Positions 9,250 to 31,689 of a DNA stretch of 64,000 nt are shown here, piece by piece. How positions within the stretch are numbered: the stretch's first letter is position 1; each line of letters starts with the position of its first letter. Source of the stretch: Halobacteriales archaeon QH_7_65_31 (GTDB lineage: Archaea; Halobacteriota; Halobacteria; Halobacteriales; Haloarculaceae); the NCBI GenBank assembly GCA_003021785.1, contig PXQU01000001.1:62001-126000 (forward strand), read 5' to 3'. The position numbers and the translations under genes were made by a program. Under the pieces are notes generated by a model. The model was not told the origin of the DNA and ran no database searches. It saw only the letters and a program-made list of their open reading frames with translations.

Positions 9250-11901
9250 TCAGGCCACCCCCGTTCTCGGGTCCACGCTGACCGGCTCATCGCCGAATAG
9301 TATCCGCCTGATGTCGCCGGACAGCGTGACGTAGTAGAGGGTGTCGTCGTTGCTGTTGACGTAGATCACGTCGCGACGCCCGTCACCGTTCCAATCGAAG
9401 ATTGTCACCGGGCTGTACTCATTGGGCGCCACATCGGTACTCGGGGTTACGAGATTTTCGTTCGCATCGCGCAGGTCGATATACCCGCTCCCAGCCGTGA
9501 ACGGGAGGCGGTGATCGCCGGAGTCAATCCTGTCCCCGTCGCCGTTCACGTCGATGCGTCGCGGCTGTCCTATCCCAGATACGGAGTTAATCGATTGCTG
9601 GCTTGACTGTGGCTGTCTGGCTCCGTCGTCGATCCACCACACCTGCTGTGAGTCCCCGATGTAGACGAGATCGCCGTCACCGTCGGCGTTGAAATCGTCA
9701 ATACCGGCGACCGACTTCCCGCCGCCGGCATTGGCGACGTCCGTCTCGGGCACGACCGACGGGCCCGCGTCCGTGCTGACTTGGTATATTTGTGGATCGC
9801 CGCTTTCCTGACCAGTGCCAGCGTAAAAGACGGCGAATTTACCCTTCCACTCCCCGGTCGCGAGCAGTGTACTGTCGAAGTTAGAGTCCGGGTTATCCGG
9901 TGAGATCGGTGCTTCCGTAGCGCCGGTATCCACCAGTAGTTCGCCCTCACCGTTGGCGTCGATAACCATGAGCGAGCCGTTGTCTGCGACGTACGGTATC
10001 TCGGCCACGCCGTCGGCGTCGAGATCGACCTGCTTCGGGCCGATTGCCTGAACGCCCGTTACTCCGTAGTCGGTTCGCGCGCCGTCGGGGGTGCGACTGT
10101 ACAGGCGGCCGGTGTCGGGTGACGTGTAGACGATCGCGTCCCGGTCGGTGTACGACGGCCGCGGCACGTCCAGCGAGACGCTGCGTCCGTGTGCCGTCGG
10201 CTCGTCGGGAGCGACCCTGACTGTGGCGCGTCTGGATAGCTCGCTCGTGTCGTACGTCACCGGAACGTTGACTGCGTAAACCGCGGGACCGGCGTACGGC
10301 TCGCGATCACCCGTCGGCGGGTAGACGTTCGCCGTCTGTACGTCGGTGCTCGCACTCGCCCCCGTGGCGAGCGTCAGCTCGTAGCTGCCGGAGATCCGAT
10401 CGCCGTTCCGGAAGGCGATATCGTACGGCCGCGACAGCCCCGGCGCGAACGGGAACACCTGCCGTCCGTTCACCTCGCCGGTCGTCACGTCGACCGACAG
10501 CCCGGTGTTCGAGCGAGCGTGGATATCGACCGTGCCGTCGGGCGCGATCGTCGCGACGGTGAACTGCCCGCTCGGCGCGCTCTCGAAGATGTGGAGTTCC
10601 CAACTCTTCCCGTCGCTGCCGGTGAGTTCGACGTAGAAGGTGTCTGCGTTCTCGATGGCCGTCGCGTCGTCGCTGTCGGCGTCGTCCACGCTCGCGAGTG
10701 TATCCATGTCGGTCGTCTCGATCTCGAACTGCCGGACGGTGGCGCTCTCCGCGAGCGTCCAGTCGGGCGAATCGGGAGCGGCCCCCGACTCGCCGAGTGC
10801 GAGATAGCCGTCTCGGGGGACGGGACCGACGCGGAACGGCGGCTCCGGCGTCCCGTCGTCGTCGCTGTCACCGGTCCGACCGCCGCCGTCCGCGAGCGTC
10901 TCCTCGACGGTGACGGTCTTCCGGAGCGTGTCGACGTTGCCGGTCGCGTCGCTCACGTCGAGCGTGACGGTGTAGTCACCGGTCGCTGTCGGGGTGAACG
11001 TCGGCGTCTCGCCCGAGCGGCTGGCGGTACTCCCGTCGGGAGCCTTGATACTCCAGTCGTAGCTGGTGATGTTGCTGTCGCCATCTGTCGTCGCCGTCGC
11101 ATTAAACTCGACTACTTCATCGACGATAGCGACGGTCGGCGCGTGTGCGAAGCGCGCATGGGGCGGCGGTCCGCTGCTACTACTGTCGTAGACGGCGACC
11201 CACGCGCTTACCGTTCGTGTCGGACCGTTCGAATCGCGCACAGTCAGTGTCACGTTCCAGAAGCCTGACTCGTCCGGTGTGATACTGGGAGTCGGTCCAG
11301 CATTGTCGGCGGTGATCGAGTTTGCCCCTTCGGTCACCTCCCAGTCGTACGAGAGATCATCGCTTGTGGAGTCGTAATCTGTCGTCTTCGATGCATCGAG
11401 TGGAAGCTGATTGCCAGCGACGATCCAGTCGTTTCCGTCTCCATTGTCGTCGTAGGTGAACGAGGGGTGAACAGGCCGCGTGCTCGTGCTCGTGCTCGGA
11501 CAGTTCGAGTGCAACGCGAGAAACGTACAGTCGCTGTCCTGTTGGATGATGATACCGTCTTCGAGCCGGACGGAATCGACGGTCGCGTACGCCGCCTGCC
11601 CTCCTGCGTACTGGCGACCGAAGAGGTCGTTCGTCACGAAGGTGGCATCGAGCACCGCATCTTCGAGCGCGGTACGGTCGCTCTTCCGGCGATCGTTGAT
11701 AGCGTCGAGCGTCCGCCCGAGCTCTCGTGACAGCTCGCCTTCGTAGTCGTCGGCAGCGAGCGTCTGCCCGGCCGCGCCACGCGTCTGGAGGTCGTCGGTG
11801 TATAACGCGCCGTTGAGCACGATGACGAGTGCGGTCAGGAACAGCGCGAGCACTAACCCGCCGATGAGCAGCTGTTGACCGCGGTCAGTTACGACTGCCA
11901 T
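9250..11901 (-). CDS. Giant pilin-like protein with PKD domains and VCBS/FG-GAP-like repeats (DUF7261-like N-terminus)
   Basis: MAVVTDRGQQLLIGGLVLALFLTALVIVLNG; two PKD-type blocks (NVTLTVRDSNG, YTVTLDVSDATG); repeats VDLDADGVAEIPYV, DFNADGDGDLVYIG, FDWNGDGRRDVIYV. Confidence 0.8.
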   Translation of the reverse strand: MAVVTDRGQQLLIGGLVLALFLTALVIVLNGALYTDDLQTRGAAGQTLAADDYEGELSRELGRTLDAINDRRKSDRTALEDAVLDATFVTNDLFGRQYAGGQAAYATVDSVRLEDGIIIQQDSDCTFLALHSNCPSTSTSTRPVHPSFTYDDNGDGNDWIVAGNQLPLDASKTTDYDSTSDDLSYDWEVTEGANSITADNAGPTPSITPDESGFWNVTLTVRDSNGPTRTVSAWVAVYDSSSSGPPPHARFAHAPTVAIVDEVVEFNATATTDGDSNITSYDWSIKAPDGSTASRSGETPTFTPTATGDYTVTLDVSDATGNVDTLRKTVTVEETLADGGGRTGDSDDDGTPEPPFRVGPVPRDGYLALGESGAAPDSPDWTLAESATVRQFEIETTDMDTLASVDDADSDDATAIENADTFYVELTGSDGKSWELHIFESAPSGQFTVATIAPDGTVDIHARSNTGLSVDVTTGEVNGRQVFPFAPGLSRPYDIAFRNGDRISGSYELTLATGASASTDVQTANVYPPTGDREPYAGPAVYAVNVPVTYDTSELSRRATVRVAPDEPTAHGRSVSLDVPRPSYTDRDAIVYTSPDTGRLYSRTPDGARTDYGVTGVQAIGPKQVDLDADGVAEIPYVADNGSLMVIDANGEGELLVDTGATEAPISPDNPDSNFDSTLLATGEWKGKFAVFYAGTGQESGDPQIYQVSTDAGPSVVPETDVANAGGGKSVAGIDDFNADGDGDLVYIGDSQQVWWIDDGARQPQSSQQSINSVSGIGQPRRIDVNGDGDRIDSGDHRLPFTAGSGYIDLRDANENLVTPSTDVAPNEYSPVTIFDWNGDGRRDVIYVNSNDDTLYYVTLSGDIRRILFGDEPVSVDPRTGVA

Positions 11902-24094: not shown

Positions 24095-24199
24095 GGCTCA
24101 CCTGTCTTCTGTGCTGAGTTCATAAAAATATACACTACAGGCTCTTTACCGGCCAAGTAGATCGACAGACGGCGAGGGAGCGAATCTCCGTGCCGAATT

Positions 24200-24236
24200 G
24201 TTTCAATCCCGTATGGTTTTTACGTCCTGTGACAGT
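24200..24236 (-). repeat. Degenerate, inverted copy of the CRISPR-like repeat
   Basis: GTTTCAATCCCGTA matches exactly the reverse complement of the 3' 14 nt of the repeat at 24271-24307; the remainder (TGGTTTTTACGTCCTGT) is partly similar. Confidence 0.6.
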
Positions 24237-24270
24237 ATCGTGGGAGTTTCGTTCCGGAACGCAACAGGAT

Positions 24271-24307
24271 GTTGCAACAGGGAAGAAACCCACTACGGGA
24301 TTGAAAC
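24271..24307 (+). repeat. Solitary 37-nt CRISPR-like repeat
   Basis: GTTGCAACAGGGAAGAAACCCACTACGGGATTGAAAC; ends in ATTGAAAC like many CRISPR repeats. Resemblance judged by eye. Confidence 0.6.
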
Positions 24308-24356
24308 ATTACGAGCGGGGCAAGGCTGATAGGTCGGCATACACGTATCTACACCT

Positions 24357-24608
24357 ATGAGCACGAAACGAACGGTAAAACTGGATTCAGACCTGTATGG
24401 CCGTGTGAAGGCACAGAAGCGGGACGACGAGACGTTTTCAGAGGCGATAGAACGGCTCATTGGGGGTCGCGGAGTGTCGCTGCTCGATCTCGCGGACGGA
24501 GAAGAGCACGATCCTGAGCGCGAGACAGAGATGCTGGAACGGCTGGAACGAACGGCAGAGGCTGACGAGGCGGAACTAAACCAGCTGGGGGAGAAGCGTG
24601 ATTCTTGA
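24357..24608 (+). CDS. vapB: VapB-type antitoxin
   Basis: MSTKRTVKLDSDLYGRVKAQKRDDETFSEAIERLIGGRGVSLLDLAD; RHH-like N-terminus; overlaps downstream PIN gene by 11 bp. Confidence 0.82.
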   Translation: MSTKRTVKLDSDLYGRVKAQKRDDETFSEAIERLIGGRGVSLLDLADGEEHDPERETEMLERLERTAEADEAELNQLGEKRDS

Positions 24609-25023
24609 CACCAACTTCCTCATTGAGCTGGATAACAACAATCCCGACGCGGTAGAGAAAGCCCGAGAGATCGAGGCAAGCGGAGAGGCGCGACAGATCC
24701 CACAGATGGTGATGTTTGAGCTGTGGACGGCTGTCGGAAAGGGGACGCAGACGAACCACAATCGGCGGAAGTACGAGCGAATACTGCAAGGGCTACCGCA
24801 GGCTGCGTTCACTCCAGAGATTGCAAAGTTGGCGGGGAAAATCGAAGGTGAGGCACAAGCAGATGACCCGAATGAGTCTGGTATTGGCGCTGGTGATGCG
24901 ATTGTCGCTGCGACAGGCATAGTACTCGATGAGCCGGTCGTGACCAGCGACGAGACGGATTTTGTGAATCGGATTCAGACGAACCTCGGATACACGGATC
25001 TTCGTGTAGAGACGTACACGTAG
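24598..25023 (+). CDS. vapC: VapC-type PIN-domain toxin
   Basis: ILDTNFLIELDNN ... VMFELWTAV ... GAGDAIVAATGIVLDEPVVTSDETDF: PIN acidic residues conserved; GTG start. Confidence 0.88.
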   Translation: MILDTNFLIELDNNNPDAVEKAREIEASGEARQIPQMVMFELWTAVGKGTQTNHNRRKYERILQGLPQAAFTPEIAKLAGKIEGEAQADDPNESGIGAGDAIVAATGIVLDEPVVTSDETDFVNRIQTNLGYTDLRVETYT

Positions 25024-25083
25024 TCACAGCCAGCCGACTTTCTGAGGCTGGTCCCGCTCTGCTTTCGACGAACGCCCCAAGAC

Positions 25084-25120
25084 GTTGGAACAGGAAAGAA
25101 ACCCACTCAAAGAGAGAAGC
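25084..25120 (+). repeat. Degenerate direct copy of the CRISPR-like repeat, adjoining tRNA-Met
   Basis: GTTGGAACAGGAAAGAAACCCACT... matches 22 of the first 24 nt of the 24271 repeat; the 3' part is diverged. Confidence 0.6.
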
Positions 25121-25121
25121 A

Positions 25122-25250
25122 TGGCCGGGGTGGGCTCCGAACCCACGATCTCCGCATATCCCAGGTGTCGGATAGGCATCCGACGGGGAGGCGGGAAGCC
25201 GACTCGTAACCCTATGAGTGCGGCGCTATGTCCAGCTAAGCCACCCGGCC
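25122..25250 (-). tRNA. tRNA-Met (CAT), intron-containing
   Basis: Reverse complement GGCCGGGTGGCTTAGCTGGACATAGCGCCGCACTCATA...intron...TGCGGAGATCGTGGGTTCGGAGCCCACCCCGGCCA; acceptor, anticodon and T stems pair. Confidence 0.9.
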
Positions 25251-25339
25251 TATCACCGGGTAGCAAACTGACGGACTTGAAGCTGTCTATCCCGCCTGCT
25301 CCCCTGCAGATTTATGCCGTGTGCCGGAAACACAGGAGC

Positions 25340-27565: not shown

Positions 27566-30500
27566 TCAGCATTCGGACCAGCCGCATGATTGACACGTCT
27601 TACAGCCCTCGTTCATCGCCAGCGACAGCCCACCGCACTCCGGACACTCGGGCGACTCGCCGGCCGCGAGCAGCGAGTCGGTCGCGTCGTCGGTGGACGC
27701 GGCTGACTCATCGAGCGTGCTCGCGCCGCCGTCCGTCTCGGTCGGCGGCGCGTCGTCTGTCTCGCGGTTCGGGTCCGTCTCCGTCGCCGTCTCGGAGAGC
27801 CGCTGCTGTTTCGGATACGGCTTGTCGATGTCGTCGTCGAGATACCGCTGGAGCGCCGTTCCGATGGCGTCGGGGATGGAGTTCACCTGCTCGCCCTTGT
27901 CCCAAGCGACCTTCGGCGAGCGGATCCCGCGCAGCTCGCTCGCGATCTCGTCGGGTGCGACACCGCTTCGCAGCGCCGTCGAGATGGTCTTCGCGAGCGC
28001 CTCGGTGAAGCTCGCCGTGAACCCACCGGAGTTGCCGATGGTCGCGAACAGCTCGAACGGCCGCTCGCGCTCGGTGTCCTCGTTGATGGTGACGTAGAGC
28101 TTCCCGTAGCCGGTGTCGATGCGCTGGGTCACGCCGTGGAGCAGGTCCGGACGGGTCTGCTTTTCGGCGTAGGCGTGCGTCTCGAAGCTGAACAGCTCCT
28201 CGGGATCGGTCTCCAGTGCCGCCGTGACCTCCTCGTGGCTGAGGAACTCGTCCAGTCCGCCGAAGACCGCTTCGATGCGGTCTGCGAGCACCGGTGCGGC
28301 CTCCTCCGGATCCATGTCCTCGGAGAACTCCGTGTTGTCGGCGCGCGTGGTGAGCACCTGTTTCGAGCGCGTGCCGTCGCGGTAGACGGTGACGCCCTTC
28401 CCGCCGTTCTCGTAGATGTAGCGGAACACCTCGTCCATGTCCTCCGGGGTCGCGGAGTTCGGGAAGTTACACGTCTTCGAGATGGCCGAATCGACGCCCA
28501 CCTGACAGGCGCACTGCACGGCCGCGTGCTCGATCCCCGAGAGGTCGGAGGTGACGACGAACAGCTCACCGATGGCGTTCGGGACGGTGTCGAGTCCCTC
28601 GACGCCGTCGAAGGCGTTCGTCGCCATCTGCTCTTGTGCCTCCTGCTTGACGGCCTCGACGTCGATATCGTTGGCCTCCAGCGTGCGCAGGAAGTAGTCG
28701 TCGAACTCGACGAGCATCTCGTCACCCTGCACGTCGTCGGAGACGTTCTTGTAGTAGGCGACGTTGTAGATCGGCTCACAGCCGCCCGTCGTATTGCCGA
28801 CCATGCTCGTCGTGCCGGTCGGCGCGATGGTCGTCGTGTTGTGGTTGCGGATCGGGTAGCCGTCCGCCCAGTCGTCGGCCGACTCGCCGGTCTGGTTCTC
28901 GAACCACTCGCGGTACTCGGTCGGGTTCGCGTACTTCGAGTCGTCCCAGTCGTGGAAGGAGCCGCGCTCGGCCGCGAGTTCGTGCGAGGCGGCCTTCGAG
29001 CCGTGATTGATGCGCTGCATGACCTGCCGGGCGACCTCGTTCCCTTCGTCGCTTCCGTAGGGGATACCCAGCTGGACGTACAGCTGTGCGAGCCCCATCA
29101 CGCCCAGCCCGATCTTCCGCATCTCCCGGACCTTCTGTTCGATCTTCTCGACCGGGAAGTCCGACATCGTGACGACGTTCTCCAAGAACCGGGTCCCGGT
29201 CTCGATGCGCTGATCGAACTCCTCGGTGTCGAGCGCCTCCGTCAGGAACCGCTCGACGCCGGCTTCGAGGGTGTCGAACTCGTTGTTCTGTGACCAGACA
29301 CGCCAGTCAGGTGCGCCCTCCGCCGCGAGCGTCGAGAGGTTGATGTGGCCGAGATTGCAGGCCTCGTACTCTTCGAGCGGCTGTTCACCACAGTTGTGAA
29401 CGTTAATTGACACACCACCGGACTGGCTCACAAAGAAGTTGTGGGTCTCGTTGACCGACAGATCGTACACGTCCTCGTTGCCGTCAGGTTCGACGACTGC
29501 AACCGTCTCGGTCGTCGTTTCCGTAAGCGACCCGTGTGAAGTTGCAACCGGCTTCGAAGCTGCAACGATTTCCTCGCCAGTCGAGAGTGTCCCGGCTTCG
29601 ACCCAACCACCGTCACTACTTCTGATCTTGTGGTCTGGCGTCGCTCGGATACTGACCCCTGATTCGGTGGTGATACGAAGGATGTCAGCGTCGGATTTCG
29701 TCATGAACGCGTCAGCAGACCGAGTCACGATATCGCCGTCATCGAGAGTCTGCACGGTAACTGACTCACTGTCAGCGGCTAACTCGCGAATCGGCTGTGT
29801 CGTTCCGTCTTCGAGTCGAACCTCAGAATCACCGGTGACACACGGGTTCGTCGCGAGAATCTGGTGGTCCGGATGCTCCTCGACGTCGAAGGAGTGCTCC
29901 TTGTTGATGCGCTCGAGGAAGACGACACCCGGCTCGCCGTTCTCGTGGGAGCCGTCGACGATGCGCTCCCAGATGAGGTTCGGGTCGATCGAGAACGGCT
30001 CGCCGACGGTCACCTCGTCGCCGAGACCGTACCGGGAGTACATCTCCTTGGTCTCCTCGCTGGCGATATGCGGCTCACCCGTGCGCGGGTTCGTGAACGT
30101 GAACTCCTCCTCGGAGTCGAGTGCCTCCATGAAGTCGTCGGTGACGCCGACGGAGATGTTGAAGTTCGAGAGATGCCCCTCGACGGCGTTACGGAGATGT
30201 TTCGGAACCTTGCCGTCGTCGTCGATGAGCCCGCGGGCCTCCTCCAGCGCCTCCGAGAAGGTGGTGTACGTGTAGTCGTCGGGGTCGTTCAGCCGGAGAC
30301 AGTGCGCGAGCGACACGTCCTTGTTCTTCGCGTGGATGAACTCGATGACGTCCGGATGCGAGATGCGCATGACGCCCATCTGTGCACCGCGGCGCGCGCC
30401 GCCCTGCGCGATCGTCTCGCACATCTGGTCGAACGTACGCATGAACGTGATCGGCCCGGAGGCGATACCGCCCGTCGAGCCGACAGCATCACCGTAGGGA

Positions 30501-31141
30501 CGGAGCTTCCAGAAGGCGTACCCCATGCCGCCGCCGGACTGAAACACCTCGGCGGCCTCCTTTGCCGTCTGGTGGATGTCGGTCAGGTCGTCACCGGGGC
30601 TGTCGACGAAACAGGCCGACAGCTGCTGGAGTTCGTCACCGGCGTTCATCAGCGTCGGCGAGTTCGGGATGAAGGAGAGCTGTTCCATCACCGCTTGGAA
30701 CTCCTCGCGCTTGTCCTGGACGTGTGCGCGAATACCGTCCGGAAGCTCCGGAACGACGGTGTCGTAGGCGAACTTGTTGACGTTGTACACCGAGAGGGTG
30801 GTCTCGGCGTCCTCAGATGCGGTCGTACCAGCACCGAACACCTCGCTGGCGAGTTCGTCACGGCGCGGATGCTCGGGCTTGAGCTGGTCGGGCGTGACAG
30901 TCACCTCGGCGTCGCGCGCGTCGGCCTCGAAGACGGCCTCGGCGAGCGCGATGTTCTTCGCGACGCGGGCGAAGAGGTCCTCTTGGCTCTCGACGAGATC
31001 GCCGTCCTGATTCTGTCGGAGATACCGCGCCGGGAGGATGTTGTGGTAGGCGTTGTCGGTGAGTCGATCTTCGAGCGTCTCACCGCCGGTTCGTTTGATC
31101 GGCAGTTCGATGTCGTTCGCAGAGAGGTTCGTTTTCGACAT
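27566..31141 (-). CDS. nrdJ: Adenosylcobalamin-dependent (class II) ribonucleoside-diphosphate reductase, intein-containing
   Basis: MSKTNLSANDIELPIKRTGGETLEDRL, QSGGGMGYAFWKLRP, ATNP/CGEQPLEEYEACNLGHINLS, C-terminal ECPECGGLSLAMNEGCKTCQSCGWSEC. Confidence 0.93.
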   Translation of the reverse strand: MSKTNLSANDIELPIKRTGGETLEDRLTDNAYHNILPARYLRQNQDGDLVESQEDLFARVAKNIALAEAVFEADARDAEVTVTPDQLKPEHPRRDELASEVFGAGTTASEDAETTLSVYNVNKFAYDTVVPELPDGIRAHVQDKREEFQAVMEQLSFIPNSPTLMNAGDELQQLSACFVDSPGDDLTDIHQTAKEAAEVFQSGGGMGYAFWKLRPYGDAVGSTGGIASGPITFMRTFDQMCETIAQGGARRGAQMGVMRISHPDVIEFIHAKNKDVSLAHCLRLNDPDDYTYTTFSEALEEARGLIDDDGKVPKHLRNAVEGHLSNFNISVGVTDDFMEALDSEEEFTFTNPRTGEPHIASEETKEMYSRYGLGDEVTVGEPFSIDPNLIWERIVDGSHENGEPGVVFLERINKEHSFDVEEHPDHQILATNPCVTGDSEVRLEDGTTQPIRELAADSESVTVQTLDDGDIVTRSADAFMTKSDADILRITTESGVSIRATPDHKIRSSDGGWVEAGTLSTGEEIVAASKPVATSHGSLTETTTETVAVVEPDGNEDVYDLSVNETHNFFVSQSGGVSINVHNCGEQPLEEYEACNLGHINLSTLAAEGAPDWRVWSQNNEFDTLEAGVERFLTEALDTEEFDQRIETGTRFLENVVTMSDFPVEKIEQKVREMRKIGLGVMGLAQLYVQLGIPYGSDEGNEVARQVMQRINHGSKAASHELAAERGSFHDWDDSKYANPTEYREWFENQTGESADDWADGYPIRNHNTTTIAPTGTTSMVGNTTGGCEPIYNVAYYKNVSDDVQGDEMLVEFDDYFLRTLEANDIDVEAVKQEAQEQMATNAFDGVEGLDTVPNAIGELFVVTSDLSGIEHAAVQCACQVGVDSAISKTCNFPNSATPEDMDEVFRYIYENGGKGVTVYRDGTRSKQVLTTRADNTEFSEDMDPEEAAPVLADRIEAVFGGLDEFLSHEEVTAALETDPEELFSFETHAYAEKQTRPDLLHGVTQRIDTGYGKLYVTINEDTERERPFELFATIGNSGGFTASFTEALAKTISTALRSGVAPDEIASELRGIRSPKVAWDKGEQVNSIPDAIGTALQRYLDDDIDKPYPKQQRLSETATETDPNRETDDAPPTETDGGASTLDESAASTDDATDSLLAAGESPECPECGGLSLAMNEGCKTCQSCGWSEC
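29393..29842 (-). other. Mini-intein in NrdJ (150 aa, no apparent homing endonuclease domain)
   Basis: CVTGDSEVRLEDGTTQPIREL ... ATPDHKIRS ... GNEDVYDLSVNETHNFFVSQSGGVSINVHN|C; blocks A, B, F, G present. Confidence 0.92.
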
Positions 31142-31491
31142 TATCGAGTCCCTGCGTGCGTGGCGTGGATGGTCATGTTCATGTGGAGATTTCGTGGAGT
31201 CGTTCGTGGCGACGCGTGCTTCCGTGGCAGGTCCGACGACACATCTGACGCGGCGGGAGAGCCGCCGAGCGGTGGCCGTCGTTGACACTGCTTGCGGTGG
31301 ATGGACCGCTCCTCGTGTGGAACGCGTGGTACAGTTGCAACTGTTCGCCCCACCCATATAAGCGTACGCACCACGGAGTGAAACTGATCCGTTCGAGGTG
31401 AAACAAGGGTGCAGTCGTGCGGTTTTTAGCTCGAACGCTACGGTCGCTCGCTCGCCCACAGGTTTTTGCGATGTGACGCTGAGACGTAGGT

Positions 31492-31689
31492 ATGGACCCC
31501 GTGCTTCAAGCGGTACAGGTGATCCCGGAGCTGACCCTCGCCTCGATCGGGACGACGATCGTCGTCGCCCTGCTCGCGATCGTCGTGGCACGGCTCCTCT
31601 TCTCAATCGCGATTCGGCTCGCCGTCGTCGCGGCGATCGCCGCGGGGCTGTTCTGGTACTTCGGGCTGTTCCAGCTGCTCCCGATCTAG
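31492..31689 (+). CDS. Small membrane protein
   Basis: 65 aa with two hydrophobic segments; ends beside convergent trpG. Confidence 0.6.
   Translation: MDPVLQAVQVIPELTLASIGTTIVVALLAIVVARLLFSIAIRLAVVAAIAAGLFWYFGLFQLLPI

Follow-up and report, generated by a model that had tools for sequence, protein, structure and literature searches.

The window, the whole 64,000-nucleotide stretch of DNA analyzed from Halobacteriales archaeon QH_7_65_31, contains a vapBC gene pair set among copies of a CRISPR-like repeat (Table 1). A 37-nt repeat ends 49 nt before the ATG of vapB, a degenerate direct copy of it (22 of 24 nucleotides identical) lies 60 nt past the vapC stop codon, and a degenerate inverted copy lies upstream, extending to 24230 or 24236. 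This layout was described in an earlier, sequence-only reading, and each of its elements is confirmed. The repeat copies are above chance, with local alignment scores of 40 and 36 against 24–28 for the best shuffled-repeat matches. The 37-mer itself has a single match in the window at up to three mismatches, and none in 100 shuffles. The same reading saw no normal array in the window, and an array search indeed found none. There is neither a regularly spaced array nor a leader at the locus, which thus does not qualify as a type I-D array, and no spacer-length unit is found between the direct repeats.

Table 1. Features of the vapBC locus and its surroundings, with positions in the window.
Feature	Position	Strand	Basis
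Degenerate inverted copy of type I-D CRISPR repeat	24200..24236	−	Local alignment score 36 against 24–28 shuffled; head to head with the 37-mer
Imperfect palindrome, 110 bp (two head-to-head repeats plus 34-nt center)	24199..24308		Palindrome and folding tests
Intact solitary 37-nt repeat, type I-D family	24271..24307	+	Pattern matches to I-D repeats
vapBC promoter/operator region (TACAC-N5-TACAC direct repeat; TGATAG near TATA position)	24316..24356	+	Putative site roles; conservation with L041
vapB antitoxin, 83 aa	24357..24608	+	PF02697, E 4.2e-06, at curated cut-off
vapC PIN-domain toxin, 141 aa	24598..25023	+	PF01850, E 1.3e-11; candidate PIN acidic residues by eye
Direct copy, 3′-degenerate (first 24 nt of repeat, 22 identical)	25084..25107	+	Local alignment
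tRNA gene, CAU anticodon by eye, intron of ~57 nt	25122..25250	−	Rfam RF00005; 3′ end is the synteny boundary

The last 11 nt of vapB, its stop codon among them, also belong to vapC. This is the arrangement of VapBC type II toxin–antitoxin (TA) modules, a VapB antitoxin gene overlapping that of a PIN toxin, with VapB scoring 27.9 bits against PF02697, exactly at the cut-off, and VapC matching the PIN family PF01850. The closest homologue, in the same genus (L041), is 65% identical and shares 41 nt upstream of vapB, including the TACAC-N5-TACAC element. Conservation of the promoter with L041 runs from ~24316, 9 nt past the repeat, and extends over 82 nt at 83%. Nothing convincing resembling the repeat is seen in the aligned upstream region of L041, and no I-D or I-B repeats were found within the 1.5-kb flanks of L041 and 29 other VapC homologue loci. 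VapC homologues are common, occurring in 95 of 151 genomes of the family. As judged by alignment, vapBC is a self-contained module with its own predicted promoter and operator, and the repeat is not conserved with it. A search of a contig collection with VapC gave no confirmed relative, a sequence search gave no solved structure for VapC, and a plasmid search returned only similarity to the vapB and vapC coding sequences and weak matches to repeat ends. Among the titles and abstract openings searched in the literature we found no VapBC flanked by CRISPR repeats.

What is the 37-nt repeat? By sequence it belongs to a true CRISPR repeat family, that of haloarchaeal type I-D. A pattern based upon it finds matches at up to three mismatches in 24 of 400 genomes of the order, many of which have repeats of the same pattern in arrays with a period of ~73 nt. 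The one array annotated, in genome G310, is preceded by genes for Cas10d/Csc3, Csc2, Csc1, Cas3′, Cas1d and a weakly matching Cas6, and is thus of type I-D. At some other array loci the gene-size order is similar to that of G310, a likeness of sizes only, the cas identification being for the G310 array alone. Because the array repeats match and the G310 array has its cas genes, the likeness reflects type I-D descent rather than chance. The closest array repeat differs at 3 of 37 positions and belongs to a genome with Csc2 (G337); a relic repeat in G388 is also three positions away. The Rfam family CRISPR-DR60 matches over 37 of 37 positions, below the gathering score with E = 0.17. The suggestion that the repeat is CRISPR-derived is thus supported by a pattern shared with the type I-D family. 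The sequence-only reading would have given way to a dispersed repeat matching no CRISPR repeat; instead, the 37-mer matches CRISPR repeats in relatives and is not dispersed here. In about 10 real I-D arrays the leader ends CCCCT directly before the first repeat, R1. No I-D leader stands before the 37-mer, the preceding sequence being GGAACGCAACAGGAT. Several real arrays have distal repeats degraded at the 3′ side like the copy at 25084. More fully, the arrays of this family at L140–L150, L126 and L037 have a conserved leader end of the form ~AGAAA...TTATAGG...ACCCCCT right before the first repeat.

The whole genome contains one occurrence of the 37-mer at up to three mismatches, and BLAST found no related copies there beyond those described. 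The resident CRISPR array, the only such system seen in this genome, has a different repeat, 30 nt long and counted 74 times in the stretch read, which we take to be of the kind known from haloarchaeal type I-B, and a Cas1 gene adjoins the array. A match of the 37-mer to the resident array repeat, which the sequence-only reading had proposed to look for, does not exist, although the resident repeat end GGG(A/G)TTGAA(A/G)C is similar to that of the 37-mer. The resident I-B-type spacers have short chance matches only in the window. Csc2 was found neither in this genome, which is 90.6% complete, nor in five genomes of the same genus, and has a match in 14 of 151 family genomes. At this completeness the absence of Csc2 is likely rather than proven, and an I-D locus might have escaped detection.

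Homology with most genomes of the genus begins at 25113–25122, at or just past the 3′ end of the tRNA gene, and at 25336 in G004. Left of this boundary there is no aligned block of >150 bases in any of five genus and sister genomes, compared over 20-kb stretches. To the left of the tRNA, by eye, G001 and G003 have ABC-transporter-like sequence, and G002 and G004 something else. In G001 and G003 the counterpart of the Fe-ADH gene that stands left of our locus is found ~50 kb away. Because homology starts there and the left sides differ, the tRNA 3′ end marks a rearrangement boundary. A pattern search for an att-like duplication of the tRNA 3′ end found no second copy nearby. The intron-bearing tRNA gene was detected by Rfam and missed by ARAGORN. 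Elsewhere in the window a long ORF at 27566–31606 on the minus strand reads by eye as ribonucleotide reductase-like with a mini-intein interruption (CVTGDSEVRLEDG...NVHNC in the translation); its true start probably lies downstream of the TTG.

The inverted copy and the 37-mer stand head to head, and together form one imperfect palindrome with an RNA minimum free energy of −52.3 kcal/mol (z −7.1). Its 34-nt center is itself palindromic (P = 0.003 against shuffles). A 53-nt direct repeat reaches 14 nt past the CRISPR repeat. The match upstream of the two direct copies is 10 of 14 and weak (alignment P 0.29). Degenerate head-to-head pairs are also found in G004, of the same genus, and G132, of another family. 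No tail-to-tail pairs occur among the loci examined. The strict arm pattern is present in 1 of 400 genomes, namely this one, and a related pattern in 1 of 125. The head-to-head form was found neither in viral contigs nor in genome contigs, the latter search requiring exact arms and having no known positive control there. In G004 the I-D-like repeats overlap by 8 nt (L025 5831–5896, the same as L008 1472–1537) in a region beside an rdfA gene, and no TA gene was recognized next to them. In G132 (L038/L151, around C6:3748–3930) a small I-D array has its first repeat inverted, and nucleotidyltransferase (MNT-like) and Fic/Doc-like genes lie within ~1.3–2 kb.

Solitary I-D repeats occur elsewhere too. 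One, in L030, is followed after 322 nt by an HTH/nucleotidyltransferase pair, and others precede an asd-like gene in L033 and rps17e in L028. In L032 (G170, 9960–10857) a solitary repeat is separated by 181 nt from a downstream ORF resembling an AbrB-type antitoxin, and the PIN gene after this ORF seems to carry a frameshift. No further solitary repeats are evident in family f4 among the places listed. With some seven loci and no island-matched control, the proximity of solitary repeats to TA genes is a lead only. A decaying I-D locus is seen in L028 (G388, 9725–10641), with a leader end, isolated repeats on both strands, one of them 43 nt before rps17e, and a fragment that is cas2-like by eye; no Csc2 was found in this genome.

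Could the repeats control the toxin? Three features define CreTA (PMC8501985, PMC9458426): a creA gene built as psiR-psiS and closed by a second psiR or a terminator; a seed match of 10 nt (positions 1–5 and 7–11), accompanied by a PAM, in the promoter of the toxin; and a CRISPR effector. By analogy the 37-mer might yield a crRNA-like RNA by which a CRISPR effector is directed to vapBC, or to a different gene, and represses it. The repeat is intact, has the ATTGAAAC handle and lies upstream of vapB in the same orientation, degenerate ectopic repeats are the hallmark of creA (PMC8501985, PMC9458426), and the resident I-B Cas6 acts on a repeat whose end is similar. Yet the psiR-psiS-psiR unit is absent, the second direct copy being 813 nt away, and the best non-self seed match is 8 of 10, with none of these in the vapBC promoter. 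No I-D effector was found in this genome, within its completeness, or in the five of its genus, and the repeat is not conserved together with vapBC. We consider such control very improbable. A broader version would make the head-to-head pairs a small recurrent regulatory element, whose palindromic RNA would be processed by Cas6 of the resident I-B or an incoming I-D system, tying adjacent TA operons to CRISPR status as a protein-TA counterpart of CreTA. We consider this very improbable as well.

Two further explanations can be weighed. One supposes a palindrome, either mobile or structural (MITE-like or a hairpin), that might have taken its arms from a CRISPR repeat and been duplicated around vapBC; this would accommodate the strength of the palindrome, the 53-nt direct repeat and the head-to-head pairs elsewhere. 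BLAST detected it nowhere else in the genome or genus, however, so that it is not a dispersed repeat or MITE, its arm pattern is as rare as described above, and its right copy is least conserved at the outer end, unlike a transposon end. We regard this as unlikely. The other would see in the 37-mer a Racr, or RNA anti-CRISPR: a solitary repeat unit from a mobile element that would act as a decoy for type I-D Cas6 and Cas7. Solitary repeats without cas association are the hallmark of Racr candidates (PMC10651486), and the L030 copy lies ~2 kb from an integrase-like gene. But a degenerate-pattern search of viral contigs gave no matching repeat, phage DNA no credible match and a non-systematic look no recognized mobile-element genes nearby, while no I-D system was found in the host for a Racr to inhibit. 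We regard this explanation as very improbable.

We think it probable that this VapBC is ordinary and sits within the decayed relic of a type I-D CRISPR, and that its toxin is not under working CRISPR control. Part of a type I-D array, foreign to the lineage or lost from it, would have come to lie at the rearrangement boundary by the tRNA 3′ end. What survives of it would be a single intact repeat, an inverted degenerate copy and a 3′-degenerate copy like the distal ends of arrays, with a free-standing type II VapBC and its own promoter between them. In the VapBC family VapB neutralizes VapC and represses the operon. Here the PIN nuclease VapC is presumably checked by VapB, which would repress the operon through the TACAC operator. 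What we infer is that the array either decayed on site or underwent transfer, that vapBC entered it by insertion, and in which order insertion and decay took place. The family of the repeat, the failure to find an I-D effector, a promoter conserved without the repeat and the breakpoint are observed, and the parallel decay in G388, with its leader end, isolated repeats and cas2-like remnant, supports a relic. Against it, the palindromic center and the 10 of 14 upstream match are not expected from plain array decay, a full repeat is still intact, the genome is 90.6% complete, and some other solitary I-D repeats lie near TA-like genes. Of the alternatives offered by the sequence-only reading, the one in best agreement with these results is a TA cassette within what was once a CRISPR locus. 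The CreTA-like functional link is unsupported, there being no I-D effector found, no psiR-psiS-psiR, no promoter seed match and no repeat at the 29 other loci, and the module having a protein antitoxin and a self-contained promoter.

Isolated CRISPR repeats beside toxin genes can therefore be fossils, and leader, effector, seed and conservation with the toxin are the criteria that separate these from real CreTA modules. A function for the head-to-head pairs, if there is one, would connect protein toxins with type I-D CRISPR. With the Racr units the locus shares a solitary CRISPR repeat apart from cas genes, but its repeat is not on a recognized virus and no matching host system was found. Like CreTA and CrePA it has ectopic, partly degenerate CRISPR repeats beside a toxin gene in a haloarchaeon. 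In CrePA a protein toxin is paired with an RNA antitoxin (PMC12737573), whereas here the antitoxin is a protein; moreover there is no psiS with a seed match, no cognate effector was found and the repeat differs in type from the resident system. The haloarchaeal type I-D arrays share with it the length of 37, the pattern GTTGCAAC......GAAACCC..T.CGGGATTGAAAC and a last repeat degenerating at the 3′ side, but no array, leader or cas genes were found at the locus and one copy is inverted. Finally, with the VapBC type II modules (PF02697/PIN) it has in common the overlapping vapB and vapC, a promoter of its own and a candidate direct-repeat operator; it differs from them in being flanked by CRISPR repeats, and is otherwise an ordinary member.
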